Positions 1,633 through 60,846 of a stretch of DNA of 64,000 bases are shown one piece after another. Source of the DNA: Triglochin maritima. Its lineage: Eukaryota; Streptophyta; Magnoliopsida; Alismatales; Juncaginaceae. The notes under the pieces were generated by a model that did not search any database, was not told the origin of the DNA, and saw nothing but the letters and a program-made list of their open reading frames with translations. A program made the translations under genes and the position numbers. The stretch covers positions 34,577,621 through 34,641,620 of the forward strand of contig OY821784.1 in assembly GCA_963682175.1 (NCBI GenBank), read 5' to 3'. Numbering within the stretch: position 1 is the stretch's first letter; every line of letters begins with the position of its first letter.

Positions 1633-3343
1633 TGTAACGTCCTCAAACACAGCGGAAAATTTCAAATTTAAAACATACAATCAACGAGGACATTACGAAA
1701 AGGAATACACACACCGGTGCACCAACATATAATATATATATGTGAACGAGTTTACAAAAGAATGTGATTACATCAAAAGATCATATACATAAAATATACA
1801 CAAGTAATCACAACCACCTCAAAATATAGGGAAGCAGGATCAGGTCTCGAGCGCTCCCTCCGCCGTCGCCACCCACCTAACGTCGCTCTCGGCTTGAAAG
1901 CAGACAATGAATGCCTGAGTTTCCAGGAGGAAACCCAGTATGCCAAACCCTAACACATATATGGACAGAATGAAATATGCAAAGAAACGTAAAACACCAC
2001 AACTGATACACCCGCTAAGTTCCCGAAACCTCTCTCCCGGGCATAGCCCAACCACACGGGTCTCAAGGGTCCCCTCACCCCAACCCACCAACACACGTGC
2101 ACACAAGGCACCGCCGGTCCAAATCACGGCCAAACAACCCCCTCATTGCCTCAGTGTTACCGGAGCCACGGTTTTGCATCAATGTTACCGGAGCCACGAT
2201 TTTGCATCATTCGCCGGAGCCACGGCTTTGCCTCATTCACCGGAGCCACGACCACAATATCACAATCCACCTCCACGTGTCACTACTAATCGCTATAGGG
2301 CCGGAATGTCTGTGCCATCGCCCCAAAAGGGCCGGAGACCCGTTGCCTTCTAGCCAATCAATGGCAACACACACACCCACAAAAACAGTGCAAAACGGTC
2401 GAACGAAAACTGGCTTCCGGTCGACCGATCCTCACCCAGAGAACTGACCCAACCGAAAAACCCGCCAAACGGTCGACTGACAAAGGGGTCCCGGTCGACC
2501 GAAAAGCACCAGTAGAAATCCATTTTCGCAAACAACAGTAAAACGGTCGAACAACCGAACCCTATCGGTCGACCGAAAACAACCAGTAGAACTCACCCAG
2601 AGTCCTCACTTCACGGTCGACCGAAACCACACTTCCGGTCGACCGGCCATTAAGTTAACTTAAACGTCGGTCGAACGAGTCAAACAGGCGGTCGACCGTT
2701 TGGATGGTCAACGCCCCAACCGACATACAACAGTACTTTCGGTCGACCGACAAAAGGGTCTCGTTCGACCGAAAATACATAGGACGTCTTTCTCTCGCTA
2801 AAAATGCACAACCGGTCGACCGCCTAAAGGACATCGTTCGACCGATGCAAGGGATTCGCCCAAAATACACTACAACCGGTCGACCTAACCAAAACACTGG
2901 TCGACCGTTTATAGTTCAGAAACGGCTGTGCAGGTCCGACGAGCCCGAAACGGCCTACCGTCGACCGCTCCCACTCCCACACTAACAATAGGTGAGCTTG
3001 AAAGCAAGTTTGACATGCCTTAAGGCTTGAAGAAGCCTTTGAAGAACGACGGCGAGCTTTTCCACGATAAACCCAAACTCTGGCGAACACAACGATCTCT
3101 ACGACGACTCCGGCGAATCCAACACTCCGATCCTCGCCTCCGCCAACACCGAAGAACCACAGAGGGAGAGAGAGAGACGAGTCTAGAGAGAGAGAGTGAG
3201 TGAGAGAGAGATGCAAATGAGAGAGAGAAAAAAAAACCAACCTTTATATACTTTTCTCCGACTCGATCTCAGCCGTCCATCTCAATCCATCACTAATCCT
3301 CTCCTAAACACAATTAGCACATAAGAAGGGTTAGGATCTAACA
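1633..3343 (-). mobile_element. Ty3-gypsy family solo LTR, 1711 bp, TSD TCGTA
   Basis: On the plus strand it starts TGTAACGTCC and ends GGATCTAACA. It is flanked by perfect TCGTA repeats (1628-1632 and 3344-3348). Read on the minus strand it begins TGTTAGATCCTAACCC and ends ...CCGCTGTGTTTGAGG..GTTACA. This matches the ends of the gypsy 5' LTR at 58838-60846 (TGTAATATCCCTAACCC ... GTTACA), and the shared internal stretch around 'tttggcatac.gggtttcc' confirms the family. A TATA-like box (reverse of TATATAC) lies near 3245. The palindrome array at 2397-2966 is inside. No coding sequence is attached, so it is a solo LTR. Confidence 0.85.
2397..2966. repeat. Paired CGGTCGACCG palindrome array (LTR copy 1)
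   Basis: Eight pairs of GGTCGA-type sites start at 2397/2419, 2471/2493, 2545/2567, 2615/2637, 2669/2690, 2741/2763, 2814/2836 and 2878/2899. Spacing within a pair is 21 or 22 bp. Pair-to-pair spacing is 54-74 bp, mostly 70-74. A lone degenerate site follows near 2958. The array lies downstream of the LTR TATA box in the minus-strand sense. Confidence 0.9.
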
Positions 3344-3921
3344 TCGTATATGCTACCCTTCTAGATAGGTCATCAATCTTTTACAGCCAGAACTCAAAGG
3401 TACCATAAAATCATAAGCTTTTTGTAAGTTTTGTTCTCTTGCTAGTCGAAGGTGGACCTCGTCGAATTCAGGCTAAGATGGCCCGATCCGGCCCAATTAT
3501 AGGTCTAATTTGAACTCGAAAATTAGTTGTTTTATTTTTGGTTAGTTTCTTTAAGCATCATTGACGGAGAAATAAGTATATTTGCTTTTGAAAAGGTATA
3601 TGTACCTTTTCTAGACTACTTGGAAGAACGAAAACGTGGAAGACATAAACTCTTCACATTATATCAACCTGCGCGGGAAGACCCGAGCAAACAACTTCAC
3701 GCAAGAATATTCTTTTTCAGTCGAATGTTCTAAAGCATGCATCCACCACTTTTTTTTAATATGTATATAAAGGTTTACCTTTTTGATATTTTTTAAGTTA
3801 AAACCGTTTTAGGTTAGACGGCAGTTTGTTATTTTGTTGACTCAAATTATGCAGCCTACAGGTTACATGAGGTGGCCATTCAAACAAAATGCTGTATGAA
3901 TATCCATTTTAAGGCTGCAAT
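3344..3921. other. Host spacer between solo LTR and CACTA element
   Basis: AT-rich DNA with no recognisable gene; a 68-residue frame at 3527-3733 has no similarity I recognise. It is bounded by the TCGTA duplication on the left and the CACTA terminus on the right. Confidence 0.5.
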
Positions 3922-6900: not shown

Positions 6901-7438
6901 CTTGTATGTATATGTGGATGAAATTGTGAGTATTTGTGAACAAATTTATAGGTGAACGAATGTGGTGCAGTTGTATGTACACGAATACGATGACTAAAAA
7001 CAATTTCGTCGGATGCTATTTTTTTGTCCAGGTTTAGGAATAGACGACGGATGTTGTTATTAGCCGACGTCTATTCCTCTGACGAAAGGCATGGACGTCG
7101 GTTTTATGTGGAATCCGACGTATATCCCTAAAGCATGGACGTCGCATGTTAGTTCACCGACGTCTATCCCTAAAGGATATACGTCGTCTGTTATATCACC
7201 GACGTCTATCCCTAAAGAATATACGTCGTCTGTTATATCACCGACATCTATCCCTAAATAATAGACATCGGGTGTTGTATAGACCGACGTCTATGCGTTA
7301 ACGAATAAACGTCGGCTTCCACGTATGACCGACGTCTATGTATAGACGACGTACTCATAGACGTCGGATCGGGGAGTGCTTATATCCGACATTTATAGCC
7401 CCGTATATCCGACGTATATTCCCTTTTCTGTAGTAGTG
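3922..7438 (+). mobile_element. CACTA (En/Spm) transposon, 3.5 kb, defective
   Basis: The left end is CACTAGTGCAGAA; the right end, read inward on the minus strand, is CACTACTACAGAA. Both are typical CACTA termini. Subterminal regions (about 3945-4270 and 7020-7420) hold many copies of ATAGACGTCGG in both orientations, the kind of motif array bound by TNPA-like proteins in En/Spm. The flanking trinucleotides are AAT and CAT, so the 3-bp duplication is imperfect. The interior has an exon-like Ulp1 protease remnant but no TNP2/TnpD transposase that I recognise. It is therefore judged non-autonomous. Confidence 0.85.
5880..6691 (+). pseudogene. Ulp1-like (C48) cysteine protease remnant in CACTA
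   Basis: Exon-like blocks resemble the Ulp1-type protease often carried by plant CACTA elements. Near 6085-6178 a block reads HGSLDVVCP then AYWFDPLGSNKP, matching the His-containing and Asp-containing stretches of the family, but with His-Gly instead of the usual His-Trp. The block at 6406-6504 reads KQVGNTECGYYVMRYMEKIL, containing the catalytic-Cys motif (Cys codon at 6433), and ends at a GT donor. The block at 6593-6691 follows an AG acceptor, contains LDETRDRWARYF, and ends in TAA. Upstream blocks (about 5880-6010) contain in-frame stops. What is seen is a decayed tail of the gene. Assignment to Ulp1 rests on motif order and is fairly secure; activity is unlikely. Confidence 0.65.
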
Positions 7439-7562
7439 CATGTATTAAACATCAAATTTTGTGTTATACTTCTTTGAGACATTAGCTAAAATCTTAAAAT
7501 AGGTTAAGTGTAAAATTCAAAATCAAATATAATGATTTCCGAAACCATTTTTTCGAGGCAGA

Positions 7563-7626
7563 TATTAAATTTGGTGTGGTTTTTGTATTATTTTATTCTT
7601 CTTGATTATTACACGATGCATAATAT
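7563..7626 (-). repeat. Old copia 3' LTR, outer fragment
   Basis: This 64-bp piece (TATTAAATTTGGTGTGG...) matches the beginning of the intact LTR at 17893-18137. The rest of the same LTR resumes at 10903 after a solo LTR insertion. Confidence 0.85.
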
Positions 7627-8387
7627 TGAAGGGAATGTGTTCTAAAAGTTTTACTTTTAAATGTCAATTATTATGAATTGAATGAGAAATCATTTTGTTC
7701 TTGTTTATGTTATTCGTCTTTTAGAAGTGTTAAGGAAGAGACTCTTGGTCCTTAACCGTAGAGCTCTAAAAGATATTGTTTTACATAAAACAAAAGATAT
7801 TCGCAATCATGGTTATTAACATGGAACATTAATTACCGAGTTAAGATTGTCGTGTTGGTCATAGATCATTGTAGCTCTACAAGTGAGTGACAACACGGGT
7901 ATGCAAAAGAGGAAAATATTACTATTGTATACTGAATAGACCTAATAAGTAAAATATTATAGAAATGTGTTTCTGTGTCATTAATATTTTACTGTGTCTT
8001 TGGTCCTTTGATATGAGACTTATATCTAATCACTTAAGGAATACTTAATTAGATCAGTGTCTTGAACTATCGATCAGTGTAGTGTAAAGGCATTGGTTGG
8101 TTAAGTATAACTTTCGTTGGAGAAGATAGTTAGTCAAAAGATTATCATTGCCCCTCTTAATTGAGTGATGATATTAGTGGGTCCCTTGATAAAGCAAAGT
8201 TATAATGTGCACAATGTGATTTGAGTTAAGTCACATATTTATAACTAGCTTAAAGAGATCAAGAAATGAATACTAATACAAAGATGACACAATACTACTT
8301 TGTGTGTATTCTTAATATCATGAGGCAAGGGACGGACACAAGTGGTGCACTCCATCACTAAGTGGATCGGGTTTTGGTTCGAGTGGA

Positions 8388-9606
8388 CACTAGTGCAGAA
8401 TGCTCGATAGACGTCACCAAATAGACGTCGGATGTCCAAACAACCGACGTCTATAGGTATAGACGTCGGATATTTGGACATCCGACGTCTATAGGTTTGT
8501 AGAAACATCGGTTGTTTAGTATAACCGACGTCTATACCTCCTGAAAGAAGAAAATATTTTTTGTTTATTTTTTTGGATTTATTCCGTATAAGAATTTATG
8601 TGGATTTCTTTCGTATCAGAAATAACGCAATTTTTTGGGATTTATTTAGTGTAAAAATTAACATATTTTTTTGGAATTTATTTTGTATAAGAAATAACGC
8701 AATTTTTAGGATTTATTTCGTGTAAGAATTTATGTGTATTATTTTGTATAAGAATAATGTGGATTTAAAAATAATTACAATCACATGTGTGTTGTGTTGT
8801 ACACATGTGTGTGTATGGTGACATGTTTAGTCCCACATTGGAGAAAGTTTTTTATTGGTGGAGTTGAAGTACTCCACCACTCCTTTACTTCTAAATGGTA
8901 GTTTGGTACCACACTACAAAATGCAAGTGAGATACATATATATATTTAATGGTCAAAAGATTGGCACTTGGGGCACTTGGGCTCAAAATGGTTGCAACGT
9001 TTCTTTTTTACTATTAACCCATGTATAGACGTCGGATGTATAGCATGGCCGACGTCTATAGGGTGTATTTTTTATTAATTATTGATATATCAATGTATAG
9101 ACGTCGGATGTATAGCATGACCGACGTCTATAGGTCGTGCCGTATGAATAGACGTCGGTCAAGCTATATATCCGACGTCTATTTGGTGTAATAGTTTAGT
9201 CCCACATCGGAGAATTTAGTTTTGTTGGTGTGGTTGATGTACTCCACCACTCCTCTACTGCTGAACGCGAACGACTTGAGGCACCTGGGCATGTTTGGCT
9301 TGATATACGTGGTTATTTGTCAAAAGATTGGCACTTGGGGCACTTGGGCGACTTGGGCTTGATTAATGTGAGTGCAGAATGCCCGATATAGGTTGCAATG
9401 TATTTTTTTGTTGTTAATTAACATATAATAGACGTCGGTCGTATAAAGCCGACGTGTATACACTGTATAGACGTCGGTCGTATATAGCCGACGTCTATAC
9501 AACAAGGAATAGACGACGGGGAAATAGACGTCGGGTACTTGGACCATCGAAATCCGACGTCTATACCACCATATATCCGACGTATATGGACTTTTCTGCA
9601 CTAGTG
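8388..9606. mobile_element. Non-autonomous CACTA element, 1219 bp, TSD GGA
   Basis: Perfect 13-bp terminal inverted repeats (CACTAGTGCAGAA) are flanked by perfect 3-bp duplications GGA (8385-8387 and 9607-9609). Inverted ATAGACGTCGG motifs at both ends match those of the CACTA element at 3922-7438, so the two belong to one family. No transposase is encoded. Inside are a tandem block of about 60-bp units (about 8550-8770, consensus around GGATTTATTTCGTGTAAGAA), a direct duplication (about 8820-9030 and 9190-9440), and two copies of a 'TTTAGTCCCACATYGG' stretch resembling the plant snRNA upstream sequence element. Confidence 0.92.
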
Positions 9607-10016
9607 GGAATTAAGACATCTAACTAATTGGGATCTATAATGTGTAGCTAGATACCGCTTATAGCTTGTGATATTAAGCTCTTAATATCACTGCCAACTT
9701 AGTTTAGATCCTCCCATAGGTCACACCACAAAACTGGGAAACAAGAAATTGGGATTTTGAGTACATAAGATGTGTCGGGTTTCATGTAGAAAATATGACA
9801 CATGGGGTGAACAAGCAAAATCAAAATTATGTTGTGATTAATAACATAATTAGAATCTAAATTGAATTCATATGTGATGTAAATATTATGGGGTGTAATG
9901 TATTATCATTACATAGGATAATATGTTACATAAGTTGTGAATTTATTACTAATCCCGAAATGTCAAATTTTGTAGGGGTTAAACCGAAATTTGACAAGTC
10001 TGCAGCACAGTGCACA

Positions 10017-10252
10017 AACGGTCGACCTCTAAACAGTAAACGGTCGACCGGATGTGGGACGGTCGACCGTAATATTGCACGGTCGACCGGATGTGTGCAC
10101 ATCGTAACAGGGATTTCGTCTATTCGTTTTCGGTCGACCGAACATTGTGATGAAATATTTTAATGTTGCGAATGGTCGACCGAGTGTCTAAACGATCGAC
10201 CGAAACCAGGTCTAAACGGTCGACCGGACCTCGCAGACGGTCGACCGGTCAG
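10017..10252. repeat. CGGTCGACCG palindrome array (unclassified LTR)
   Basis: Nine or so CGGTCGACCG-like sites occur between 10017 and 10252. Spacing is looser than in other copies (19-24 bp between successive sites, with one larger gap around 10090-10130). The array lies about 180 bp upstream of the LTR TATA box at 10427. Confidence 0.85.
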
Positions 10253-10902
10253 ACGGTTTTATGCAGAATTAATTTAAGAATTAATTAGATCATGCATGGA
10301 ATTGGTCCATAATTGATTTAATTCGTGGCTAAGATTATTTATTAATAAATAATGGATGGTTAGATGGAATTTTGCATGGAATCATGGGCAAGAGGTTGCA
10401 CATGAATAGGTAATTTGGAGAGAACCTATAAATACAAGGTTATCTCATTACCTCCTTAATTAATTCATTATTTTTCTTATGCAAAATCTCTCTCCATAAT
10501 TCTCCACGAAATTACAGTAATTCTTAAGTTTAGTTTTAGTTCTTCAGAGGTCATCTTCTAAAGGGAACTAAAGAGGGGTTAGTAATTGGATTCTAAACCC
10601 TATTGGAGATCGAGAGGATAGCTCGTCTCTCTCCAATCTTGTTTAGAGTTTGGTGAAATCTCGGAGGCATCCGACGCAGCAACAAGCATCCTCAACGTCT
10701 CCGAATCTTCAAAAAGTTTTAGAGAACTTCCAGGTATGAATTTCGGAGCCCCATGTTTGTTTTAATAAAAGTTTTAAAACTAGTTATTGAAACAAACCGA
10801 TGCATGCATGAAATAAATTATGGAAAATTGAAAATTGATCCTTATTATACATAAAAAATCGAAAATATATATGTATAATTAAACATGAAATCCTACAAAT
10901 AT

Positions 10903-11081
10903 ATAGGTTGTCAAGTAGCCGTTTGAGACAAATATACAAGTTTCCATGTTCATGATATTTGGTTCCTTGATGTGTGCTTGAATCACGGTTGTCTTTCTTA
11001 GTGAGAATCTGTATGAGGAGTAGGTGATGATGACCGTTTGAGAGTCTGAGCCGATTATGGAAGTTTGTATGTATTTCAACA
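10903..11081 (-). repeat. Old copia 3' LTR, inner fragment
   Basis: This piece continues the LTR broken at 7626 and ends TATTTCAACA, as does the copy ending at 18137. The polypurine tract follows directly (ACTCCCCTCAAGTTGGG, plus-strand view). Confidence 0.85.
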
Positions 11082-12318
11082 CTCCCCTCAAGTTGGGATC
11101 GGAAGAGATTGAATGATCCCAACTTGTGGAGCATACTTTGAAATTGTTTTTGGTTCAACGATTTGGTGAAGATATCTAAAAGTTGATCTCTGCTTTGGAC
11201 ATAGGGAACTTCAATTTCCTTAGCTAAGATTTTTTTCTCTAATGTGCTTGGTTCGTTCATGGAAGACTGTGTTGGAGGCTATTTGGCGAGCTGCATGGTT
11301 ATCACAAAACATTTGCATGGGAGTTTCGCATGGAATCTTCAATTCTCTAAGGAGTTGTTTGAGTCAAATTAATTCACTGGTGGTGAAGGTCATAGCTCTG
11401 TACTTTGCTCCAGCACTGGATCTTGCAACAACATTCTGCTTTTTGCTTCTCCAAGTGACGAGGTTTCCACCACCGAAGGTGCAAAAACCAGTTGTTGATT
11501 TTCGGTCGTGGCTACCAACCCAATCTGCATCAGAGTAGCCAATTATAGAATTAGAATTATTATTTCTCATCCATATGCCTTGACAAGGATTTTCTTTAAG
11601 TATCTGAGAATTCTATCTATAATGTCTAGGTGGTGTGTGTGAGGGGCATGCATGAATTGACTTATACTAACAGTATATGTTATATCAGGTCTGGTCACAG
11701 TGGGGTAAATGAGCTTTCCTAGTAACCTTTCAAATGGGCCTACGTCCTTTAGGGGTTCCCAATTAGTGGGGTTTACCTTATGATTTGTTTCGATAGGAGT
11801 GTTAGCAGGTTTAGATCCCAATTTCCTTGTTTCTTATAGAAGGTCTAAAATGTACTTTTGTTGTGATAAAAATATCCCCTTTTTTGAACCAGCAATTTCA
11901 ATTCCTAAAAAATATTTCATGAAACTTAAATCTTTGATGTCAAATTTAGATGTTAGATATGATTTAACATGATCAATTTCCTTATTATTGTTTCCAATGA
12001 TTATGATATCGTTGACATAAATTGATATAATAGTGGTGGTGGTGTTGTCGTGTTTAGTGAACATGGAAGCGTCAGCAGATCATTTTGAAAAACCATATAA
12101 TTAGAGATAGTGGATTGGTTTGGCATACCATGCTCGGGGAGACTGTTTCAATCCGTAGATTGATTTGTGAAGTTTGCAAACCTGATTTTTCGAGTTGTAC
12201 CCGGGAGGTGGAGTCATGTAGACTTCTTCTTCCAAGTCTCCTTGGAGAAACACATTACGAACATCCATCTGAAATAAGTTCCAATCCTGATTGATAGCAA
12301 CTGAAAGAAGAACGCGAA
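11082..12318 (-). pseudogene. Old copia pol: RT end and RNase H remnants
   Basis: Minus-strand fragments in several frames match the C-terminal half of copia pol. One near 11834-12064 contains SIYVNDIIIIGNNN, so the catalytic YVDD reads YVND. One near 11567-11821 contains KLIYPTVTRPDITY. RNase H motifs YSDADWVGSHDRKSTTGFC and SRSSAGAKYRAM lie near 11364-11570, the latter with the acidic E changed relative to SSAEAEYRA in the young copia. Frame changes and stops separate the pieces. The sequence breaks at about 12318 where another LTR element has inserted, and resumes at 14563. Confidence 0.85.
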
Positions 12319-12323
12319 TTGTG

Positions 12324-12967
12324 TTTTGGCTTTTAGGGCTTAATCTATGTTTTGATTATTTAGTCAACCTAATTTTAATAATAATCAAATGTAGAGTAGC
12401 ACACATTATGCATAACATATATATTGCTTTGTGCTAAAATCTACAGGTGATCAATACTCAAGGAAGAAAGGAATTCAAGTCAAGACATGTAATCAAGCTT
12501 TTGAAGACATGTAATTTTGCTTGTAATTGAGTCTTAGTAACTTCTGTATACTTGATCATACTAAGGTAAATAACTACTCACATACACATTATGTTCCTTA
12601 TAAAAGTCACACACAAAAACTCAGATCAATTGGACTTCAATAGGTTGTTGGCTTTTTGGCCTTAATCTATATTTTGATGATTTAATCAACATAATCTTAA
12701 TTGTGATCATGTAGAGTAGCACACATGTTGCATTGCATATATATTGTTTTGTGCTAACCTCTACAGGTGATCAAGACTCAAAGAAGAAAGGAAATCAAGT
12801 CAAGACATGTAATCAAGCTCATTTGAAGACATGTAATTTGTATTTCTTTTGAGTCTTAGGAACTTTGTGTAATTGAGCATAATTGAGCTAAAAACTACTC
12901 AAACACACACTAGGTTCCCTATAGAAGTCACACACGAAATTTCATATAATTTGGACTTCAATAGATC
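12324..12967 (+). repeat. Tandem duplication of LTR 5' end, 322-bp unit
   Basis: Copy 1 begins TTTTGGCTTTTAGGG and copy 2 at 12646 begins TGTTGGCTTTTTGG. Both continue through 'gtagagtagcacaca' and 'aggtgatcaa.actcaa.gaagaaagga' to 'ttggacttcaatag'. The related solo LTR at 47355-48842 has only one copy, so the duplication is specific to this element. Confidence 0.85.
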
Positions 12968-13023
12968 ACTCAAACTTAGACCGGAAAACACTAAATCAAA
13001 ACCTGAACTGTCTGCCCACATTC

Positions 13024-13493
13024 GGTCGACCGAAACAGACCGTTCGGTCGACCTAGTGATCATATATCTTGTTAATGTTTTACTGCCCAAGTTCGGTAGA
13101 CAAAGTAGCAATAATTTTTCGACCGTTTGTTTTGTTGTATTATACCCAACGGTCGTATTCGTATTATCTCCATATACCCCCAAATACATTTTGTGTATCT
13201 GTCGACCGAGGACCTTGTTCGGTCAACCGAACTTATGTTCCTTGACAAACCCAAAATACCTATCGGTTTTCGATCGACCGTAGACCTTATTTCGGTCGAC
13301 CGAATATGATCTTGTTTGTCAACCCCAAAGAGTCTGTTGTGAATCGGTCGACCGAACCTATCTCGGTGTTCGACCGATCACTTAAGTGTACCTGAGTCAA
13401 CAACCTTTGGCGGTCGACCGTTCTTTAACTGGTCGACTGAACCTTAATCTAAATTGCCAAACGGTCGACCAAACAACCCGATCCGGTCGACCG
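13024..13493. repeat. Paired CGGTCGACCG array (copia-type LTR copy)
   Basis: Pairs start at 13024/13046, 13095/13117 (degenerate), 13200/13221, 13272/13294, 13346/13368, 13412/13431 and 13463/13485. Spacing within a pair is 22, 22, 21, 22, 22, 19 and 22 bp. Pair starts are 51-74 bp apart apart from one 105-bp gap. The array is upstream of the TATA box (near 13591), in the U3 region. Confidence 0.9.
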
Positions 13494-14165
13494 AACTTAC
13501 TCAGAATTGGGTCCTGTCAATTTCTGTTTTGTGTATCTTACACAATCTTTACCCAATTCATCCCCAACGGCTATAACTCTTTAGGAGCTTATAAATAGAG
13601 TAGTAAAACACATTTTAACACAACTCTCCCACTACTATTTGTCCCCTACATTAGAGAGAAAGCTTCAAAGACTCCAAGCCTCAAACCTTCCACACTTTAG
13701 TCTTAAATCATATTCTCACTCAAGTGTGCTTAAGATTAGAGAGTGTTGTTCCACTCATTGTTTGTTCAAGAAGCAAAGGTCTTGGTGAAAGCCCAAGATA
13801 AGAGTATAGACTTCGGTGAGATCCCGAAGTGTCCCTCTCGGATTGTTAGAGGCGGAGCCAAGCTCGGTGAGGGTTGTTCGCGAGCTTGAAGATTGTAAAG
13901 GCGTTCTCTCCCGGCCCGGAATGGGGAGTGGTTAGTGAAGTCGTGAGCGGAGCTCGGTGATCTGAGCAGAGCTTGCAAAAGAGAACTAGGACCCGGGTGG
14001 GGTGCCGAATCTCTATAAAAATCCCCCGACTCCTTGTGGTTTGCAGTTTTCATTCCTTTATTTGCTTGTTTAGTTTTAAATTCCGTTGCATATCTTTGAT
14101 CGTTAAACAAGTAGGTAATTAAGGTTAAAAGTGATTAGAATTAGAGACCCTCACGATCCTACATT

Positions 14166-14177
14166 TGGTATCAGAGC
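14166..14177 (+). other. Primer-binding site (initiator Met tRNA type)
   Basis: TGGTATCAGAGC lies two bases after the LTR end (...ATCCTACA at 14163). This is the classic initiator-tRNA-Met complement used by many plant copia elements. Confidence 0.9.
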
Positions 14178-14219
14178 TTTGTGAGCTAAATTTCATTACT
14201 TAACCGTATTTTATTAGCA

Positions 14220-14381
14220 ATGGCTAGCACATCTAATCATGTAGAGAGTTTATGTACAACTAGACATCCTTTGCTAAATGAGTCAAATTATGATTATTGG
14301 AAAAATATGATGAAAATATTCATAATATCTAATGACCTCAAGTATTGGATGTTTCTTCAAAATCCATACACACCCCCAAAG
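14220..14381 (+). pseudogene. Truncated copia gag N-terminus
   Basis: An ATG at 14220 opens a frame reading MASTSNHVESLC and later LLNESNYDYWKNMMKIFI, resembling the N-terminal gag region of Ty1-copia polyproteins (the NYxYWK block). After about 54 codons the frame runs into 3' LTR sequence, and it stops near 14405. Everything from mid-gag to the 3' LTR body is deleted. The junction lies in a GGAGCTTGCAA-like stretch that also occurs in the LTR, so microhomology or LTR mispairing may have made the deletion. Confidence 0.8.
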
Positions 14382-14562
14382 CGGAGCTTGCAAGAGAGGA
14401 AGTAGGTGGGAGGCCGAACCTCTATAAAATCACTGGTGTTGCTGTGGTTTGCATTTTCTACTTGTTTGTTTTAATTATTTCAATTGCATATATTGTTTAA
14501 GCAAGTAGAGAATTAAGCTTAAAAGTGATTAGAATTAGGGTCATACACGTTCCAACACCGTG

Positions 14563-17500
14563 TTCATTTTTACTACAGGGGCAAAAGTTTCCTGATAATC
14601 TAGGCCATAAGTTTGGGTGTATCCCTTATCAATGAGACAAGTTTTATATCTTTCAATTGATCCATCACTATTGTACTTAATTTTGAAGATCCATTTGCAT
14701 CCTACAGGTTTAATACCTGGTTGGGAAGGAACCAGGGTCCAGGTTTTATTTGATTCTAATGCACTTAATTAATTTTTCATGGCTTTTGCCCATTCAGAAT
14801 AAGTTATAGCTTCTTGGTAGGAGTTTGGTTCTTTATGTTCATCAAGTTTGGTTAGGAAGGCATAATGGTTGGGTTTTATGTGGTTATAGGACACAAAATT
14901 CTGTATAGGGTAGGTTACATTGCATGAAATAAAATCTTGAAGTTTGGGTGGAAGGCGAGTTTGTGTAGTAGACCTTCTTCTTGGGGCCTCATGTTCTTGA
15001 GCATTAACCCGTTGTCCTAGATTTACCTCTATAGGATCGTCTCCTCCCCCTCCCTCTTGAGGAGTGTTGGTTTCCACAAGAGTTCGAAGTATTTCTTCGA
15101 AGTCATCATCCACTGGTAGTGGGATCCCAGATTATGTAGAGTTGTTCAAGGTCTCCCTGTTGGGCTTAAAGTGTGGCTCTCCTTTAAATAAAGATACATC
15201 ACGGGAGACATACAATTTACAATTACGAGGGTCATAACACTTGTACTTTTTTTGAACGAATATCCTAAAAAAATAGTTTTAATAGAATTGTAATCAAATG
15301 TGTTTGTTCTCTTCTTGTGAACAAAGTAAATACAACCAAAAGCTTTAAGGTGATCAATATTTATTTTTCTGTTATTTAAAATTTCTAATGGTTGTTTGTT
15401 TTGAGTAGTGGGGCTAGGAAGACGATTTATGAGATAAGTAGCAGTCAGGACAACATCAGACCAATAAATTTTAGGAACATTATTTTTAAATAATAAAGAC
15501 CTAGTGGCATTCAAAAAATGATGATTTTTCTTTTCGGAAACACCATTTTGCTAAGGAGTATTGATACAAGTAGTTTGGTGAAAAATCTTTTTTTGTTTTA
15601 ATTTTTTTTTAAATCGTTACTTATATACTCGGAGCCATTATTAGATCTCAAAGTTTTGATTTTAGTTTCGTACATATTTTCAACAAGTGTAACAAAATCA
15701 CAAAAAATAGAAGAAACTTCGGATTTAGATTTAAGCAAATACAACCATGTAGTGCGAGAAAAATCATCAATAAATATGATAAAATATCTAAAACCATTAT
15801 AAGATTCAATTGGAGTTGGACCCCAGATATCAGAATGAATTATTTCAAAAGGATTTTTTGTTGTTTATAGAAGAACAAAAAGGCAATCTGGTTTGTTTTG
15901 CAAGGCGACAAACATCACAACATAATTCCTTTTTGATGAACGGAAATAATTATTTTAAAATCGCATGACACGGATGTCCCATACGTTTATGCCTAAGTTC
16001 ATGATTCCACACTTGTTTAGCATGCAAGGCTTTATTTGAGCTATCAATAACATATAAACCGTTGATGAGGGTACCCCTACCAATCATCTTCCCTGTAGTA
16101 CGGTCCTGAAAAAGTACATCATATGGAGTAAATATTACATTGCAATTTAATTTTTTTGTGATCCTAGCAACGGACAAGAGGTTGGATGCAAACGATGGAA
16201 CATATAAAATATTGTTGGCAACATTATTTTATATTTGCATGTCTCCTACTCCTTTTATTTCAACTAGCTTCCACTTGCGACCGTGACAAAATTTGGGAGA
16301 TTAAGGTTGGGTGTGATACTTTTTAGCAAATTTGCATCTCCAGTCATGTGGTCTGTTGCTCATGAATCTATAATCTAACATGAATTTTCTAGATTATATA
16401 AAGAATTAACAACATGATTGGAGGGATAAGCCATACCTGAAAAATTACCTTTATTTTGACTCTGAGTTTGCTGATTTGGGGTTTGGTCTTGGAGCAGGTG
16501 GTTAAGTTTGTTCAGGAGTAGGTCTATTTTTTTGATGGTTGGTCAGGTCTACGAGCTCACTCCCAGTCTGAGCCAGTGTCTATGTGGAACATGATCCTCC
16601 TGTTGGGTTGTCGGTTGTCCCTATATATGCCCACAAAGCCGGATCAGACCCGATTACGCCCCTGTCTCGTACATCTCCTCTTCCCGCTCCGTCCTTTGTT
16701 GGTTGGAGATGTGGAAACAAAAACCAGCAGCGATTTTTTGTGTGGCCTTGTTTCTTGCAATTTTCGCAGTACTCTTATTTGCAGTTTCTGAAATTTCCTT
16801 TCCCGTTTTGGTTTGAGTTAGGGTTGCATGTGGCTGCGAAGGCTTGGATTTCCCGTTTGGTTGGTTTTGCGTCTTGTTTCTTTGTGATTGACCATTGCGA
16901 CTATGCGTGACAAAGGTGGTAGTTCGGATGAGAGCAATATCTGGGATCAGATGGAGTCATAGCTTGGGTCTAGACCGACCAATAACTGGTATATCCGGTC
17001 TTGTTCGGTTCGGCCTTGGATGGTCTTGATGTCGGTGGTCAGAGGTTCATAGATGCCCAGTTCGTCCCATTTGTTCTTTAGGAACCCTGAATACTCTGTG
17101 ATGGTTTTCTGACATTGCTTGGTTTTGCGAGATCTCTTGTTTGATTTTTGCGATTGACCATTGCGACTATGCGTGACAAATTTGGTAGTTCGGATGAGAG
17201 CAATATCTGGGATCAGATGGTGTCATAGCTTGGGTCTAGACCGGCCAATAACTGGTATATCTGGTCTTGTTCGGTTCGTCCTTGGATGGTCTTGATGTCG
17301 GTGGTCAGACGTTCATAGATGCCCAGTTCGTCCCATTTGTTCTTTAGGAACCCTAAATACTCTGTGATGGTTTTCTGACATTGCTTGGTTTTGCGAGATC
17401 TCTTGTTTGATTTTGAACACATGCGCAAAAATTTGTTGTTTTCCATACAAATCTCGGATGGAATCCCAGAGCTTTTTTGAGGAGTTGGTGTAGAGGAATA

Positions 17501-17763
17501 TCTCCCCAATTTGTGGTTGCATGGAGTTGAGGATCCATGACATGACGAGGTGGTTGGAGTTTTGTTATTCTTCTTGTGCTTTTTCGATTTTTCTCTTTCT
17601 GGTTTTGTTGTTTTCCCAATGATGTGACCAAGTCTCCCCTTGCCACTGAGGGAGATGGTGATGGCCTTGACCCATGATAGGAAGTTTTTCACCGTTGAGC
17701 AGCTGTGAGACAGAGTCGTTGCGTGGTGTTAGCCTCCGGGTGGACTCTGGTGACATCTGTCAT
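14563..17763 (-). pseudogene. Old copia gag-pol remnant (gag to RT start)
   Basis: Minus-strand copia coding sequence broken by stops and frameshifts. The gag ATG is at 17763 (MTDVTRVHPEANTTQ). Gag follows at 17213-17760 (SMQPQIGEIFLYTNSSKKLW), then protease and pre-integrase pieces near 15950-16400 (motif NHELRHKRMGHPCHA), integrase C-terminal and linker pieces at 15146-15514 (LTATYLINRLPSPTTQNKQ), and the segment before RT at 14769-15113. Each block aligns by eye with the intact polyprotein of the young copia at 19632-23912. A 266-bp tandem duplication lies in gag. Confidence 0.88.
16886..17417. repeat. 266-bp tandem duplication in old copia gag
   Basis: The stretch starting GATTGACCATTGCGACTATG at 16886 recurs at 17152. 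The copies stay nearly identical through 'gacattgcttggttttgcga', with scattered single-base differences. The unit length is 266 bp. Confidence 0.88.
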
Positions 17764-17879
17764 GATTGGAAGAGCCGGAGGCAAGTTTGATCTGCAACCC
17801 TCTTCTGATTTTTGGGGATGAGGCCAAAGCCAATGATGAGCTCGTCGGAGCGTCTGAGGTTTGAGGTTTTAGAATCGAT

Positions 17880-17892
17880 GCTCTCCATACCA
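17880..17892 (-). other. Degenerate primer-binding site of old copia
   Basis: Minus-strand TGGTATGGAGAGC directly abuts the 5' LTR (17893). It resembles the initiator-Met site TGGTATCAGAGC with a few changes. Confidence 0.65.
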
Positions 17893-18137
17893 TATTAAAT
17901 TTGGTGTGGTTTTTGTATTATTTTATTCTTCTTGATTATTACATGATGCTTATAATATATAGGCTGTCAACTAGCCGTTTGAGACAAATATACAAGTTTC
18001 CCTATTCGTGAGATTTGGTTCCTTGATGTGTGCTTGAATCACGGTTGCCTTTCTTGGTGAGAATGTGTACGAGGAGTAGGGGATGATTACCTTTTGAGAG
18101 TCTGAGTTGATTATGGAAGTTTGTATGTATTTCAACA
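17893..18137 (-). repeat. Old copia 5' LTR, 245 bp
   Basis: Intact LTR copy (plus-strand view TATTAAATTTGG ... TTTCAACA) followed by the duplicated target GCAGA. It aligns with the split copy at 7563-7626 plus 10903-11081. Confidence 0.88.
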
Positions 18138-18142
18138 GCAGA

Positions 18143-19426: not shown

Positions 19427-19430
19427 GGCA

Positions 19431-19637
19431 TGTAGAAAACGAAGATGATTTGTTGAGGTTTTATTTCTGAGGAAAAGAAAAGTTGTTCAAACATTTGATT
19501 TACAAGATATATATAAGTATAGGGTTTGATTGTTGTTAGAAGGGAAAGGATGCGTCTGTTGGTGAATAGACGCGATTGTTCCTTGTGATTTAATGCTGGT
19601 GATGATGTTTGGTTATGTCGCTTTGGATTCTTCAACA
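19431..19637 (-). repeat. 3' LTR of young copia, 207 bp
   Basis: Plus-strand view begins TGTAGAAAACG and ends GGATTCTTCAACA. The first five bases of the LTR in the coding sense (TGTTG) and the next base form the last codon and part of the stop of gag-pol. Confidence 0.92.
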
Positions 19638-23912: not shown

Positions 23913-24070
23913 CACTTATCTTTCTCTTGGGTTTGGATGTAGGTTTCTTCCACCTTCAACCCCCTTGAGAGGCGAAGATGGTGGGTTTTTTGGTGGATGT
24001 TTCTGAGGTGATCCAGTGATGAGCTCAGAGAACTCTGAGGATCACCGATGATGGAAAAATGGGAATCTTC

Positions 24071-24082
24071 GCTCTGATACCA
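24071..24082 (-). other. Primer-binding site of young copia
   Basis: Minus-strand TGGTATCAGAGC lies directly next to the inner end of the 5' LTR (24083), complementary to initiator tRNA-Met. Confidence 0.93.
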
Positions 24083-24288
24083 TGTAGAAAACGAAGATGA
24101 TTTGTTGAGGTTTTATTTCTGAGGAAAAGAAAAGTTGTTCAAACATTTGATTTACAAGATATATATAAGTATAGGGTTTGATTGTTGTTAGAAGGGAAAG
24201 GATGCGTCTGTTGGTGAATAGACGCGATTGTTCCTTGTGATTTAATGCTGGTGATGATGTTTGGTTATGTCGCTTTGGATTTAATGCT
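24083..24288 (-). repeat. 5' LTR of young copia, outer end rearranged
   Basis: Identical to the 3' LTR from TGTAGAAAACG to CGCTTTGGATT. It then diverges into TAATGCT, which duplicates an internal LTR segment (GATTTAATGCTGG). Confidence 0.88.
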
Positions 24289-24292
24289 GGCA

Positions 24293-31000: not shown

Positions 31001-31105
31001 AAGTTTTTTTGTCTTTTAGTTTTATTGAAGCCCATTAAGTCCAAGGCCTAAAGGCTTGTGAGTTCAAATCCATTCCAAATATCAATTGTACCGTAAACTT
31101 GATAT
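28056..31105. other. Intergenic, 3' of GARP gene
   Basis: AT-rich DNA. Short frames (for example 29850-30059 and 30559-30798) show no similarity I recognise. One isolated CGGTTGACCG-like site occurs near 28881, without an array. Confidence 0.5.
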
Positions 31106-47354: not shown

Positions 47355-48842
47355 TGTAGGATCGTGTTTATGGCTTAGTTCTAATCAATCTTAAGTTTAA
47401 TTAATCTCTACTTGCTTAACAATCAAAGATGCAACGAAAATTAAAACTAAAACAAGAAAGCAAAGTAAATTCAGCAAATCACAAGAAGACACTGGGATTT
47501 TTATAGAGGTTCGTCCTCCCACCTACGTCATCTCTTGCAAGCTCCGTTCAATCTCCCTCGAGCTCCGCTCGCGTCTTCACTATCAACCTCGTTCCGGGCC
47601 GAGATTAAGCCTTTACAAGACAAGCTTCCGCAAACAACCCTCGCTAGCTTGATCTTCTTCCTCTCACAACCCGAGAGGGAATACTTCGGGCTTTCACCAA
47701 AATCCTTACTTCTTGAACAACAAATGAGTGAGACAACACTCTCTAAATCTTGAGTACACTTTGATTAGAATATGGAAATTGTCTACAGTGTGGAAGTGTA
47801 AGCTTGTGAGTGTAGGTTTGGAGAATTGAAGCTTGAGAGTTTCTCTTAAGTGTATATGACAAATTGAAGTGTAAGAGATGTGTAATTGTGTCAAGGAAAC
47901 ACCTATTTATAAGCTCTGAGTTATAGCCGTTAGGATTAAATGGGTAAATGTTTGTGTAAGATACACGAAACAGAAAGGTGCAGGTCACATTCCAGGATAA
48001 GTTCGGTCGGCCAAATCGGACATACCGGAATCTAAGTGAACGGTCGAACTAAGGTTTTGGATGGGTCGATCGTTCAGGGGTTTTGGTCTGGTAAATGATG
48101 GATCGGTCGAACTATGCAAATGATCGGTTCAACCGGAAATTTCCAGGCACTTCTGAGATTGGGAAGAAATTGAGTTTCAGTCGACCAAAGTCTAGGAGAC
48201 GTTCGACTGGAAACTTCCATAGAGTTCAGGGTGACCAAAGAATGTTTGATTGGTTGATCGCTAGGTAAGTTTCGGTCGACCAGAAGTTTGGTAAGTTTGG
48301 GGTTTTGGGAAATTTGACCGTTGTAGAAAACGATTAGTGTAACGGTCATGTGACACGTCTAGACGGTTGAACAAAAAGTTCTAAACAGTCGACCAGTTTA
48401 ACACTAGATTCTGTAACAGAATAAACAAACTCAATCGGTCGAACGATGAACTCGTTTTGGTCGACTGATTTGGTCAGGCAGTTTAAGTTTGGTTTAAGTG
48501 TTTTCCAGTATAAATTTGGGTGGTCTATTGAAGTCCAAATGTTGTGAAATTTTGTGTGTGACTTCTATAGGGAACCTAGTGTGTGTTGATTGGTTTTTAG
48601 CTCAAGTATGCTCAATTACACAATGTTCCTTAGACTCAAAAGAAATATAAAATACATGTCTTCAAATGAGCTTTGATTACATGTCTTGACTTCATTTCCC
48701 TCTTTCTTGAGTCTTGATCACCTGTAGAGATTAGCACAATACAATATATATGTTATGCATAGTGTGTGCTATTCTACATTGATTATAATTAAGATTAGGT
48801 TGATTAAATCATCAAAACATAAATTAAGGCCAAAAAACCACA
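47355..48842 (-). mobile_element. Solo LTR of the 12324-14557 family, in gypsy RT
   Basis: Minus-strand view begins TGTGGTTTTTTGGCC and ends CACGATCCTACA, as in the LTR at 12324-14163, and the two share long internal stretches and a TATA box (TTATAAATAG, near 47910 on the minus strand). It is 1488 bp and splits the gypsy RT just before FMVVYLDD. The flanks (GAACT and GAATG) do not give a clean duplication. It has a single copy of the 5' segment that is duplicated in the other element. Confidence 0.85.
48005..48470. repeat. Paired CGGTCGACCG array (solo LTR copy)
   Basis: Pairs start at 48042/48064, 48105/48126, 48179/48201, 48252/48274, 48365/48387 and 48437/48459: spacing 22, 21, 22, 22, 22 and 22 bp. 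Successive pairs are mostly 63-74 bp apart. Single motifs are more degenerate than in other copies but the spacing is kept. Confidence 0.88.
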
Positions 48843-49693
48843 GAATGGATCCAGGTTGGGATGGAATATCTTGTTCATTAAGGTGCAGACGATTGCAGGG
48901 ACATTGGTTAGGTTGAACGACATGACTAACCACTAAAATGACCCATACCTTGTGACATTTGTAGTCTTTGGTTCATCCCCCTGGCGATCCTGACTTGATA
49001 ATACCCCTGAGTCGACGAACAAGTTTGCGATCAAGGGTATTGGGTACTTGTTCTTGATGGTCACCTTGTTTAATGCGCGATAATCAATGCACATTCGAAG
49101 GCTCCTGTCATGCTTCTTTGGGAACATCGGCACTCCATATTACGCATTTGAGGGTCGAATCTGACATGCTTCCAACAAGCTACTGAGTTGTCTTCTCATC
49201 TCCTCCAACTAAAGATGTGGCATCTGAAAGGGCACCATGGCAGGGAGTTTAGCCATTGGCTCAAGCTCAATCTCATAATCTACCTCCCTCGTTGGAGGTA
49301 GTTCCTTTGGCAACTTTGGAGGCATAACATCTTGGTTTTCTTCCATTACTTCTTGGACAGGTTTAGGGATCTCACCCTCTTTTGCCACGCCTCCTTTATG
49401 GTTGCCAAGAACGTCTCATTTCCTTTCTTGAATCTCTTTATCAACTTTATAGCGAACATAGTGGGGACTGATTTTGGTTTAAGAGAGGTCTGCACCAGAT
49501 ACTATGGTGTTTCTCCATGATACACATGGAGTTCGAAGAAGGGAGTACTAGTGTGTTTACACTTGTCAAGAAGTCTAATCTCAGCACCATCTTGTGATCA
49601 TCTACAGGAACAATGGAGAAACATATGTTTCTCCTCCAAGTTCCAGCTCCACATTGGTGGCTTGTACCACCCATTCAATGGGCTAAGCACAAA

Positions 49694-49966
49694 TAGGGTT
49701 GAGCATCGGTCCGGACCCGGACCGAACCCGGATGCTCTCCGGGGTCCGGACCGAAGACCGGCCTGGTCGGGTTCTGTCCGGTCTGGTCCAAAAACCCGGA
49801 CCGAACCAGAATTTTGAGGGAAAAAATAGATTTTGGACCGGACCGGACCAACAACCGAATTTGTCCTTGGGTCCGGACCGGTCAGATTCGGTCCAGACCA
49901 AACCCAGACCAAACCCGGACCGATCAGTCTGGTCCAAAAAACCAGACCGAAATTTGCACAACCCTA
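49694..49966. mobile_element. hAT-type MITE, 273 bp, inserted in gypsy relic
   Basis: Terminal inverted repeats TAGGGTTGAGCA / TAGGGTTGTGCA (11 of 12 match) are flanked by near-perfect 8-bp duplications (AGCACAAA at 49686-49693, AGCACAAG at 49967-49974), the size expected for hAT elements. The interior is rich in GGTCCGG/CCGGACC inverted motifs and encodes no transposase. It interrupts the protease-side part of the gypsy relic. Confidence 0.9.
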
Positions 49967-51379: not shown

Positions 51380-51391
51380 GCTCTGATACCA
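51380..51391 (-). other. Primer-binding site of gypsy relic
   Basis: Minus-strand TGGTATCAGAGC followed by C. The 5' LTR expected beyond 51391 is not recognisable by a TG...CA end. Confidence 0.75.
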
Positions 51392-56870: not shown

Positions 56871-56879
56871 GGGTCTGGC

Positions 56880-57285: not shown

Positions 57286-58837
57286 CTAAAAAATAAGACC
57301 CTCCAAAATGACGATACATGGCGGCAACGGTCTAATTTGAGAAATATGTTTGGAAGATGTTTATTTTGGAAGGAAAAAAATTTATTTCGAAAAAGAAAAT
57401 CTTCTACAGAAGCAAAGTGTTTTTTTCTGTTTTGCTTTTTTTTCTTAGGAAGCAAAGTTGTCCTCGTTATTTGCGTGGGTAAGGCAGTTTCATTGAGCTT
57501 ACCAAAATAAAAAAAATGTTTTAACTGACACATTACTCGAACCGTGACAACCCTGTCTCAAGTCAGATTAAATCCTAGCTTTTCGTTCCCAAAGTTTTTA
57601 TCCGTATCTATAACAAGTCCTAAGTAAATTTGGTGGAAATTTGTCAATCAAAAGATTATGATTTTCTAATTTCCATGAAAACCCCTTTTGTTTCTCAGTC
57701 CTTACGCTTCTCTCAACCAAGTAGCTTTATCGTGATATGAGGTTTCAAATAATTGTAGAAGTCGATTATGACTGTAAAAGTAGTTCCATTCTACGAATTA
57801 TTCATTTTGTATCGGTATATGTTTGGCACAACGATGTCTTTCCTATTCAGTTAAACATTTACCATCTTTTGGCTTTTAAATCATAATAAACTTAATTAAA
57901 ACGACTTACTTAACTGTAGGTACTTATTTATTTTAAATATATATATATATATATATATTATTTTCATTTAGAATGTGTTAAAATGAAGAAATGTGACTTG
58001 GGGAGACAATTTGTCAGAACTCGATAAAACAGTTTTGAAGGAAGATGGAAGGGTTTGAAACGAAATCATAAGTAATTAAGAAAGGTAAATTGTGCATTTT
58101 CAATTTACATACATCAAGTTATTAAAATATATTCTCCGAAATAATTGTTGTCTGTCATTTACTCTAAGAGGATTTACTTGAAAAGTATACTCCATAAAAT
58201 TTACTACTTCTAGAATTCTAATGATATGACTTCCAAAACATATAGATTTTAAATAAGATTTAGTATTTCACGATAATTTATGGATTAAGCTAACAACCTA
58301 CACCAAGAAGTGTAACTATAATATGGTGTAGTGTCCTTAAAGACGGGAACCTCCTTAATCATCATTATTATTATCCATCCCATAATGGAATTTGTACTTC
58401 AAATCTAATGTAAAGGTACTGTCAAGCAATCAAAGGGGATAACTAATAGAGTACTTTCAAGAAAACTTATCATTTAAAGAAAGATTAACGCGAACTTCAA
58501 AAACTAACGAAAATGGCGTTGACTCTGAATCATTTTGACCGTAGAATTTTGGTCATATATCTTACTTATATAGTTGCCACAATAGTATTATAATTTATAT
58601 TGAGCCATCACATCTTTACCTACTTTACTTGTAAGTTGTTTTGATAGTAAACTCATATTCTTGTGAAAATTGACGATTCAATTAAGTTCGATAAGCATTT
58701 TCTTTTAGATGGCGAAATATTACGATCGAGTAACTAAATCAAATCAAAATCATACAAATGATTCCAAAATGACTTTTTAATCTTTTAACGTCCGCCCAAC
58801 CCTATGAAATATTTCACTGAACTTCGAAAGTAACTAT
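57286..58837. other. Gene-free AT-rich region with AT microsatellite
   Basis: An (AT)n tract lies at 57936-57958. No other feature was recognised before the gypsy LTR. Confidence 0.55.
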
Positions 58838-60846
58838 TGTAATATCCCTAACCCACTTAGGGGTTAAGTGGAGTTTAGTGGTTAAGTGGAGAGAGGTGGT
58901 TTGCATGAGGAAATGAAGAGGGTGGCGTGCACTGTAGATAAGGTGTAGGGGTGATGAGTGGTTTGGGTTTTAAGGCAAAATCTCTCTCTCTCTCTCACTT
59001 GCTCACTCTCACTCTCATTCTTTTCTTTGTCTGGCGGCCAGCAGAGGAGGAGGAAACTCCGGCGAAGGTGGACGAGCTCGATGTCGCTGAGGCGCGGTCG
59101 TGAGGTGCGTTGGAGCGGAGGTTGTTGTCGCTGAGGCGCGGTCGGGCGAATCTCCGGCGTGCTCCATTTTCCTTTGAGGTATGTCAGCTTCTTAGTGTGT
59201 TTTTGGTTGCTCACCCTCGTGTGGGTGAAGTGTTGGTCGGTCGCCGGAGGTCGACGACGTGGTTGGCGTAAATCCTTGGCTAGCGCAAGGTTGCAGACGA
59301 CTAACGGTCGACCGATTCCTTCGGGCGGTCGACCGATGTATGCATTTTTGCTTGACTTTAACCAACATCGGTCGAACGATGCCCTGTGGCGGTCGACCGA
59401 TAGTGCTTTGTGATGGTGGGTCGGGGTTGCCTGTTGGTTTTCGGTCGACCAGTTCCATGTTTTCGTTCGACCAAAACTTAAGTGTATTGGATTATTGTGC
59501 ATGATTGTTTGACCGTTGTTTAGTATGTGTTCGACCGTTATATGACTTAGAACTGCTAGGATGCCCTCGTAGTTTTCGGTCGACCGGGACCCCTGAGTCG
59601 GTCGACCGGTAATATTGATTGATGTTGACCAGACTCCGGATTTTGACCACGTATCGGTCGACCGGTTTTAGACTCTTGTTCGACCGTTGGGACTTAGGAT
59701 TTGCGCAGAGAGATCAGCCATTGCAGACTTTCGGTCGACCGTTTGTGCACAGAACTGAATTCCCGGTCCTTTCAGGATGCCAACTCTGTCCACGGAAACC
59801 CGTGTCCTCGTCTTGTACGTAAGCCGGGAGGTGACGGTGGGCGCGTTACGCGTACCTGCCCAGGGACCGTCGTGTGGAAGAGTGTGGGTGTTTGGGACGT
59901 GTCACCTCCGTGTATGGATCGTGACTTGATGTGATGGATTGATGGACTCATTGAAGAGTAGCAGACCTGAGAGATCGTGGATCTCAATGTATGATGTGCG
60001 GCTCGTGGAGCCTCATGACCCAGCGGACCTCGGTCCGGACCCGTCTGATGTTGTGCTAGACGTATGTTGGACCACCGATGTTGTGCCGGTGATGTCGTCG
60101 ATGTTGTTCCGGCGATGATGGGCCGATGTTGTTCCTACTATGATGTTTGATGGGACGATGTTGTTCCGGCTATGTTTTCCTCAGTTGGGCACCTACTGAG
60201 ATGATGATTGATGGACCAACCGAGCGACGACTCTGTTGGGGTGGTTTCGGCCACGAAGTTACAGATCTGTTTCTTTTGGTGCGGACCTGGCGGATGCTCA
60301 TTGCCGAACCCCATGTTTAGTGTAGCCGCATGTGGGGAGCATCACGTCTTGTTCCGCTAGACCGTATGTGCCTACGATAGGTCTCCTTGGGAGACCCAAT
60401 GATGATTGTTGGACTGATGTCCCGTTTTACCCTTCGGGAGAACTGTTTTCCTTATTGTGGATGACATGACATGCTACTAGTATGATATGTTCATTTGTAC
60501 TACTACATGCATATAGGTGAGTTTGGCATACGGGGTTTCCTTATGGAAACTCAGGCATTGTTGTTGCATGTTTTATTTCAGGACCACAGTAGGTCCAGTT
60601 GGGTGGTGATCAGCGGGCGCGTGCATTTTGGGATCGGATCCTCTCGTTCGGACCACTTAGGTTGACATGATTACTTGTATATCTTTTTGTTATTTCTAAT
60701 GTAATCATGTAGCTTTTTGATAAAACTCTGATGTGATATGGTGCACCGCTTGTATTTTTATGAGAAGAAACAGTCCCGTCGTTTGATTATTAGCCTCTGA
60801 TTTCTTGATGATAAATTTTAATTTTCCGCTATTTCGGGATGTTACA
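58838..60846 (+). repeat. 5' LTR of Ty3-gypsy element, 2009 bp
   Basis: Starts TGTAATATCCCTAACCC and ends TTTCGGGATGTTACA. A primer-binding-like stretch follows at 60850 (TGGTATCAACGCGG), matching the initiator-Met site in its first eight bases only. LTRs of the same family stand alone at 1633-3343 and 35609-37655. A palindrome array lies at 59306-59745. Confidence 0.88.
59306..59745. repeat. Paired CGGTCGACCG array (gypsy 5' LTR)
   Basis: Pairs start at 59306/59327, 59370/59391, 59443/59465, 59507/59529, 59578/59600 and 59656/59678, followed by a single site at 59733. Spacing within pairs is 21, 21, 22, 22, 22 and 22 bp. Pair-to-pair distance is 64, 73, 64, 71 and 78 bp. Confidence 0.92.

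Follow-up and report, generated by a model that had tools for sequence, protein, structure and literature searches.

Two-level palindrome arrays in Ty1/copia and Ty3/gypsy long terminal repeats of Triglochin maritima as candidate phased protein-binding sites

A 64-kb window of the Triglochin maritima genome, to which all site counts, spacings and tests given here refer, carries six clusters of the 10-base-pair (bp) palindrome CGGTCGACCG. Five of these clusters are located in long terminal repeats (LTRs): three in related LTRs of the Ty3/gypsy type and two in related LTRs of the Ty1/copia type that have a Sirevirus-like layout. Neighboring sites form pairs in all six clusters, and distances near whole turns of the DNA helix predominate. 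On balance, we lean toward a model in which the clusters are LTR regulatory arrays, akin to the repeated motifs (RMs) of Sireviruses, that are bound on one face of the DNA by a candidate dimeric host protein.

Palindrome sites and the LTRs that carry them

The window contains 31 exact copies of CGGTCGACCG and 60 copies with no more than one mismatch, the latter compared with a mean of 0.36 and a maximum of 2 in 100 dinucleotide-preserving shuffles. This is by far the most frequent of all 1024 perfect 10-bp palindromes in the window, and the runner-up, ATATATATAT, is present in 6 copies. The six clusters, which had been proposed in a first-pass annotation of this DNA, hold 58 of the 60 sites, and the remaining two are found at 28881 and 41352. 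When up to two mismatches are allowed and overlaps are resolved, which defines the site set used below, the clusters comprise 80 sites, including 33 pairs and 14 unpaired sites.

Array A (2396-2967) has 17 sites and 8 pairs, array C (10019-10247) has 9 sites and 4 pairs, and array B (13023-13493) has 12 sites and 6 pairs. Array A' (36358-37094) is the largest, with 19 sites and 7 pairs, and it extends beyond the end at 36990 assigned to it previously. Array D (59238-59741) has 13 sites and 5 pairs. The cluster previously placed near 48005-48470 is present as array B' (48004-48467), but its 10 sites and 3 pairs are decayed. None of these sites is exact, two have no more than one mismatch, and eight have two. 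Strand does not apply to the arrays themselves.

Arrays A, A' and D reside in Ty3/gypsy-type LTRs. LTR A (1633-3343, minus strand) and LTR A' (35609-37655, minus strand) are both solo copies, and each is flanked by an exact 5-bp target duplication (TACGA and ATACA, respectively). LTR D (58838-60846, plus strand) is the 5' LTR of a Ty3/gypsy element and is followed by ATTTGGTATCAACGC. Behind it, at 61046-63684 on the plus strand and in several reading frames, lie sequences for a gypsy gag, an aspartyl protease (RVP_2) and a reverse transcriptase (RVT_1). The gag that begins at 61046 matches P0001, which bears PF03732, with 57% identity by tblastn. LTR D thus leads into RVP_2 and RVT_1 domains and not into a Ty1/copia coding region (RVT_2).

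Array B begins 377 bp into LTR B (12646-14163, plus strand) and is 471 bp long, and array B' begins 375 bp into LTR B' (47355-48842, minus strand) and is 464 bp long. LTR B has a Sirevirus-like layout. It is followed by TTTGGTATCAGAGC, such that its junction reads TTTGG/TATCAGAGC, and then by a copia-type gag start of 52 amino acids (14220-14375, plus strand). The Pfam matches of this gag start are weak and fall short of the curated cut-offs, with E = 0.015 for PF14244 and E = 0.065 for PF13961. A TATA-like box, TATAAATA, is located at 13590-13597 on the plus strand, 97 bp after array B, and occurs in the same context in B' at 47911 on the minus strand. In both LTRs, TTATAAATAG lies about 95 bp past the array and about 62% along the LTR. 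LTR B' is a solo copia LTR inserted within a gypsy reverse-transcriptase remnant, and 3 of 5 letters are shared between its flanking sequences, CATTC and AGTTC. The copia-type LTR annotated earlier at 12324-14163 is real, but its true start is 12646. The preceding segment (12326-12643), positioned immediately ahead of LTR B, is a tandem copy of its initial ~320 bp with 83% identity.

Array C has a CACTA-like insertion on one side and a copia remnant on the other, and a TATA-like box is present at 10427. No LTR ends or second copy were found for this array, and so we do not place it in an LTR. With sites masked, the array C region aligns with A' (z 6.1) over a stretch that is outside the array. 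The proposal that all clusters lie wholly inside LTRs therefore holds for five of them, whereas no LTR ends are established for the sixth.

Two-level spacing, helical phase and site conservation

The pairing of sites had been described for five clusters at distances of 19 to 22 bp, most often exactly 22. We find pairs in all six clusters, at 19 to 24 bp. The 74 gaps between neighboring sites include 35 in this range (21 of them exactly 22 bp, as anticipated), 15 at 50-53 bp and 3 at 73-74 bp. This amounts to a two-level rule of about 22 + 52 = 74 bp, or about 2 + 5 = 7 turns of DNA, and the pairs often recur near 74 bp. A period scan from 5 to 40 bp over all 244 pairwise distances of up to 160 bp peaked at 10.45 bp (R = 0.56). 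The same period was recovered when only one copy per family was retained (R = 0.48; 166 distances, scan 5-60 bp), and 400 random placements, scanned from 5 to 20 bp only, reached a maximum R of 0.38. When each cluster was compared with 4000 random placements, the phase at 10.5 bp was significant for the five arrays in LTRs (A, 0; A', 0; B, p = 0.0005; B', 0.026; D, 0.027).

These distances suggest how the arrays might operate. Each CGGTCGACCG would be a binding site for a putative dimeric host DNA-binding protein. With about two helical turns between the sites of a pair and about seven from one pair to the next, the bound dimers would be located on one face of the DNA, where they might bind cooperatively and act jointly on LTR transcription. 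Ty1/copia elements of the Sirevirus-like type and Ty3/gypsy elements would then share the site because both exploit the same host protein.

Several observations weigh against this model. The phase of array C at 10.5 bp is not significant (p = 0.14), and array B' taken alone has a best period of 12.65 bp. The 22 gaps outside the 22-, 52- and 74-bp classes have no clear phase (Rayleigh p = 0.11). For the 18 distances between pair centers that fall outside 72-75 bp, a V-test at 10.5 bp gives p = 0.009 and a Rayleigh test gives p = 0.06, but their best period is 12.05 bp rather than 10.5 bp. In the gypsy arrays alone, such distances give p = 0.011 (n = 10, best period 10.35 bp), compared with p = 0.18 for the copia arrays (n = 5) and p = 0.06 when one copy of each is used (n = 12). 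Furthermore, the random placements ignore possible duplication of a 74-bp unit, which would also yield a period within one family. Whole-turn distances of the sort expected for a phased protein-binding array are therefore present, but they are carried mainly by the 22-, 52- and 74-bp classes and are weak outside of them.

The position of the arrays relative to promoter elements also counts against the model, because the arrays are upstream of the TATA box in the copia LTRs but downstream of it in LTR A. The box in LTR A, TATATAAA (3241-3250, minus strand), is putative and a pattern match only. It precedes array A, and therefore the array would sit in the transcribed leader. No TATA[AT]A[AT] pattern was found ahead of the array in A' or D. 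Thus, none of the three gypsy LTRs shows the arrangement of the Sirevirus RM, in which the array is upstream of the TATA box.

In all three gypsy LTRs, the palindrome array is flanked by the two arms of an inverted repeat, which approximate GGTATGTCAAACT and AGTTTGACATACC. Its offsets from the LTR start in A, A' and D are 325, 505 and 341 for one arm and 1396, 1736 and 1684 for the other. The left arm is similar to a 5' splice site, and in A' and D the right arm is followed by TTTCAG. A leader intron that contains the array is possible in the gypsy LTRs.

Substitutions among the 80 sites are unevenly distributed. Changes affect 7 of 320 letters in the TCGA core, compared with 64 of 480 for the other six positions, and the central CpG takes only 3 of 28 CpG transitions (p = 0.006). 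The ratio of observed to expected CpG is 1.37-1.95 in the arrays versus 0.78 for the window. In the 33 pairs, mismatches are less common in the outer halves of the paired sites (15) than in the inner halves (38; p = 0.002). However, this bias is clear in the gypsy arrays (5 versus 25) and not in the copia arrays (9 versus 11). The large dyad CGGTCGA-N18-TCGACCG, named in the first-pass annotation, is with its better-kept outer halves consequently a gypsy trait, and the confinement of outer-half conservation to one LTR group is a further point against the model.

Four sites (13220, 28881, 36831 and 37030) have undergone a transition at the central CpG to give CGGTTGACCG or CGGTCAACCG, both of which contain TTGACC. 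This sequence is the W-box of WRKY factors, and decay of methylated palindrome sites could create W-boxes.

A pair of palindromes can also be viewed as 10-bp hairpins with 12-nucleotide loops, and such hairpins, rather than protein sites, might be what is selected, either for a role of the RNA or for small RNAs and silencing. RNA of the arrays indeed has a much more stable fold than shuffled sequences (z -7.5, -6.6 and -3.2), and in the available portions of two reports, maize Sirevirus LTRs are described as having small-RNA hotspots in their palindromic regions (PMC5311732, PMC10760457). However, there is no covariation between partners: 298 of 330 cells are paired, compared with 299.7 when partners are shuffled, and only 4 double changes occur in all, 3 of them paired. 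When the sites were kept and the spacers were shuffled, with or without randomization of the spacing as well (40 randomizations each, four arrays), the fold was about as stable, with z from -1.9 to -0.4 for A, A' and B and of +1.6 and +2.3 for D. A hairpin also would not need a seven-turn spacing. Because covariation is lacking and the sites alone give the fold, we reject an RNA or DNA hairpin as the cause of the spacing, and we consider selection for hairpins rather improbable. A search of Rfam gave no match within the window.

Among the options put forward in the first-pass annotation, phased binding on one face of the DNA is thus the best supported, given the 10.45-bp period, the sparing of the core and of its CpG, and the lack of any hairpin excess.

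Comparison between LTR groups and with published arrays

To compare the LTRs independently of the palindrome, sites were masked and alignments were scored against shuffles. The three gypsy LTRs are mutually homologous (z 27 to 111), as are the two copia LTRs (z 263), but there is no clear homology between the groups (z no greater than 3.5, with 30 shuffles each). The description of these LTRs as unrelated is therefore accurate for copia versus gypsy but not within either group. Unmasked blastn does join arrays A and B (E 2e-8), which can be explained by matches among the palindrome sites themselves. Recent conversion between copia and gypsy LTRs, which would have undercut the original interpretation, has no support in the masked alignments, and the evidence from spacer flanks is equivocal.

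The spacers were also compared by using profiles. Those trained on A and A' detect D, and do so in only one orientation (p < 0.001), which demonstrates that the test can detect homology. When gypsy and copia are compared, inner spacers give no match in the orientation of the elements (p = 0.23), and the reverse orientation gives a better score (p = 0.03, and p < 0.001 for training on copia). Copia flanks are rated above shuffles by gypsy-trained flank profiles (p 0.001-0.02). Since the gypsy and copia flanks score in both orientations, a strand-consistent spacer consensus for the two groups is equivocal.

These results bear on the possibility that recombination or template switching carried one old segment between the copia and gypsy groups of LTRs, after which the copies diverged, such that the spacing was inherited from a 74-bp unit and no shared protein is involved. 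The identical 10-mer and the 22- and 52-bp spacing in both groups are in keeping with such a transfer, as are the flank scores and the unmasked match between A and B. In addition, a maize Copia palindrome is reported to be present in Helitrons as well (PMC10760457, in the portion available). By contrast, the masked comparisons are weak, the inner spacers match equally well or better in reverse, and true homology, as between A or A' and D, is seen in a single orientation only. We therefore regard an old shared segment as unlikely, though a more serious contender than selected hairpins.

Within families, the copia pair shows that spacing can be kept while sequence changes, as had been claimed. 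Array spacers have 46-48% identity between B and B', compared with 79% for the rest of the LTR, and yet 7 of the 11 neighboring gaps of array B are unchanged in B'. Sites are 65-68% identical, a figure that is inflated because any site can align with any other. The same inflation applies to the gypsy pairs, for which identity is 68-91% for sites, 45-61% for spacers and 48-56% for the rest, such that gypsy spacers do not diverge faster.

The rapid divergence of the copia spacers, together with the recurrence near 74 bp, might instead reflect a selfish or neutral minisatellite, whose arrays expand and contract in LTRs by slippage or unequal exchange without any function. Yet, among the 30 rows reported by Tandem Repeats Finder in the window, only 10040-10100 falls within an array, and on this basis a simple tandem repeat of similar head-to-tail units is ruled out. 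The units have sites in common, whereas their spacers differ, and the sites persist although rich in CpG, with few changes in the core. The presence of the same 10-mer in copia and gypsy LTRs would moreover require a second cause. A functionless minisatellite is accordingly the explanation to which we give the least credence.

The layout described in the first-pass annotation stands, but the motif was overlooked as a published one. Sirevirus LTRs bear palindromic CGG-CCG RMs, and that of a Vitis Sirevirus is CGGTCGACCG (Bousios et al. 2010, PMC2829016). In the available portion of that report, the RM is termed Sirevirus-specific on the basis of a comparison with classic Ty1/copia elements in which gypsy elements were not included, and no common RM-binding factor could be named. 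Among the papers that a text search for a plant factor acting on this site retrieved, PMC2829016 deals with the motif, and the accessible part of another (PMC4259311) contains the same sequence as a primer.

Arrays B and B' closely resemble the Sirevirus RM as it is presented there. The palindrome is identical to the Vitis RM, the LTRs carry at least 8 copies each (12 in B and 10 in B'), and the clusters fall within the published ranges for start (200-400 bp) and extent (300-500 bp) (PMC2829016). A TATA box follows shortly after the CpG-rich arrays, near the middle of the LTR. At the junction of LTR and primer-binding site, where Sireviruses have CA/ATTGG/TATCAGAGC, LTR B differs by one change (CA/TTTGG/TATCAGAGC), the junction of gypsy LTR D starts similarly, and the solo LTR B' has no junction. 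The coding sequence that persists behind LTR B is limited to the 52 amino acids of gag, with neither pol, by which Sireviruses are placed in reverse-transcriptase trees, nor the region ahead of a 3' LTR, in which they have multiple polypurine tracts. The differences are that three of the arrays described here are in Ty3/gypsy LTRs, and that neither pair spacing nor helical phase is described in the available text of PMC2829016. LTRs A, A' and D thus carry the Sirevirus RM and yet are not Sireviruses.

Two other systems are comparable in part, judging from the portions of the sources available. The palindromes of maize Sireviruses likewise form clusters in the regulatory region of the LTR that are very variable between copies and have strong predicted RNA folding. 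However, the palindrome is a different one (CACCGGACNNNGTCCGGTG), the emphasis there is on secondary structure and silencing, and the spacing that we observe is not accounted for by folding. In Tnt1 and other plant LTRs, repeated activator boxes regulate transcription (PMC2829016). These boxes are also short and repeated, some with dyad symmetry, but they number two or three per array, compared with the 9-19 sites with two-level spacing found here. In the open-licence literature searched, as far as its accessible text extends, we saw neither helical phasing nor the occurrence of CGGTCGACCG in gypsy LTRs reported. The motif itself is known, and its occurrence with two-level spacing in gypsy LTRs and its helical phasing are new.

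Viral contigs in IMG/VR were searched as well. At least 120 stretches match the half-site pattern and 9 match the full pair (GC content 0.53-0.69), with no link to LTRs seen, and the gypsy protein gave 2 pattern matches, neither confirmed. Two contigs (L123:38-104 and L124:8264-8602) have clusters of near-identical 10-mers at 19-, 20- and 22-bp spacing, which are perhaps operator-like arrays of their own.

Neighboring elements and implications

Other mobile elements are present in the window. A young Ty1/copia element at 19429-24281 has 201-bp LTRs that are 100% identical and an open gag-pol frame of 1427 amino acids on the minus strand. An older relative is located at about 10898-18137, as judged by blastn and tblastn, and the LTR pairs of both elements are without the palindrome. 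The segment at 7040-9610, which we take to be CACTA-like from its end motif, includes CCGACGTC-rich units, each about 42 bp long, in tandem. Another gypsy remnant is interrupted by a 273-bp insertion (49693-49965) that has the direct repeat TAAGCACAA on both sides and inverted ends resembling those of a miniature inverted-repeat transposable element of the hAT type. It is packed with GGACC/GGTCC boxes, including 6 copies of GGTCCGGACC with no more than one mismatch. Named relatives of the window's retrotransposon proteins, among the 120 matches listed per protein search, are all from angiosperms, and none is close.

The same palindrome with turn-by-turn spacing is present in gypsy LTRs, and we therefore favor a host factor over a feature specific to one type of element. 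The 32-bp pair represents a defined bait with a built-in control, in that the sites can be shifted by half a turn. A more particular version of this model is that one host protein reads CGGTCGACCG and is exploited by both superfamilies, with copia and gypsy LTRs having built their phased arrays separately. We offer this version only tentatively and consider it somewhat doubtful, but it would have several consequences. The array would be the fingerprint of a trans-acting factor that both superfamilies share, and changes in the specificity of that factor would be tracked by the CGG-CCG palindromes, which differ among the Sireviruses of other plants. Were such arrays to occur genome-wide, the transcription or silencing of two large groups of retrotransposons would be tied to a single regulator.

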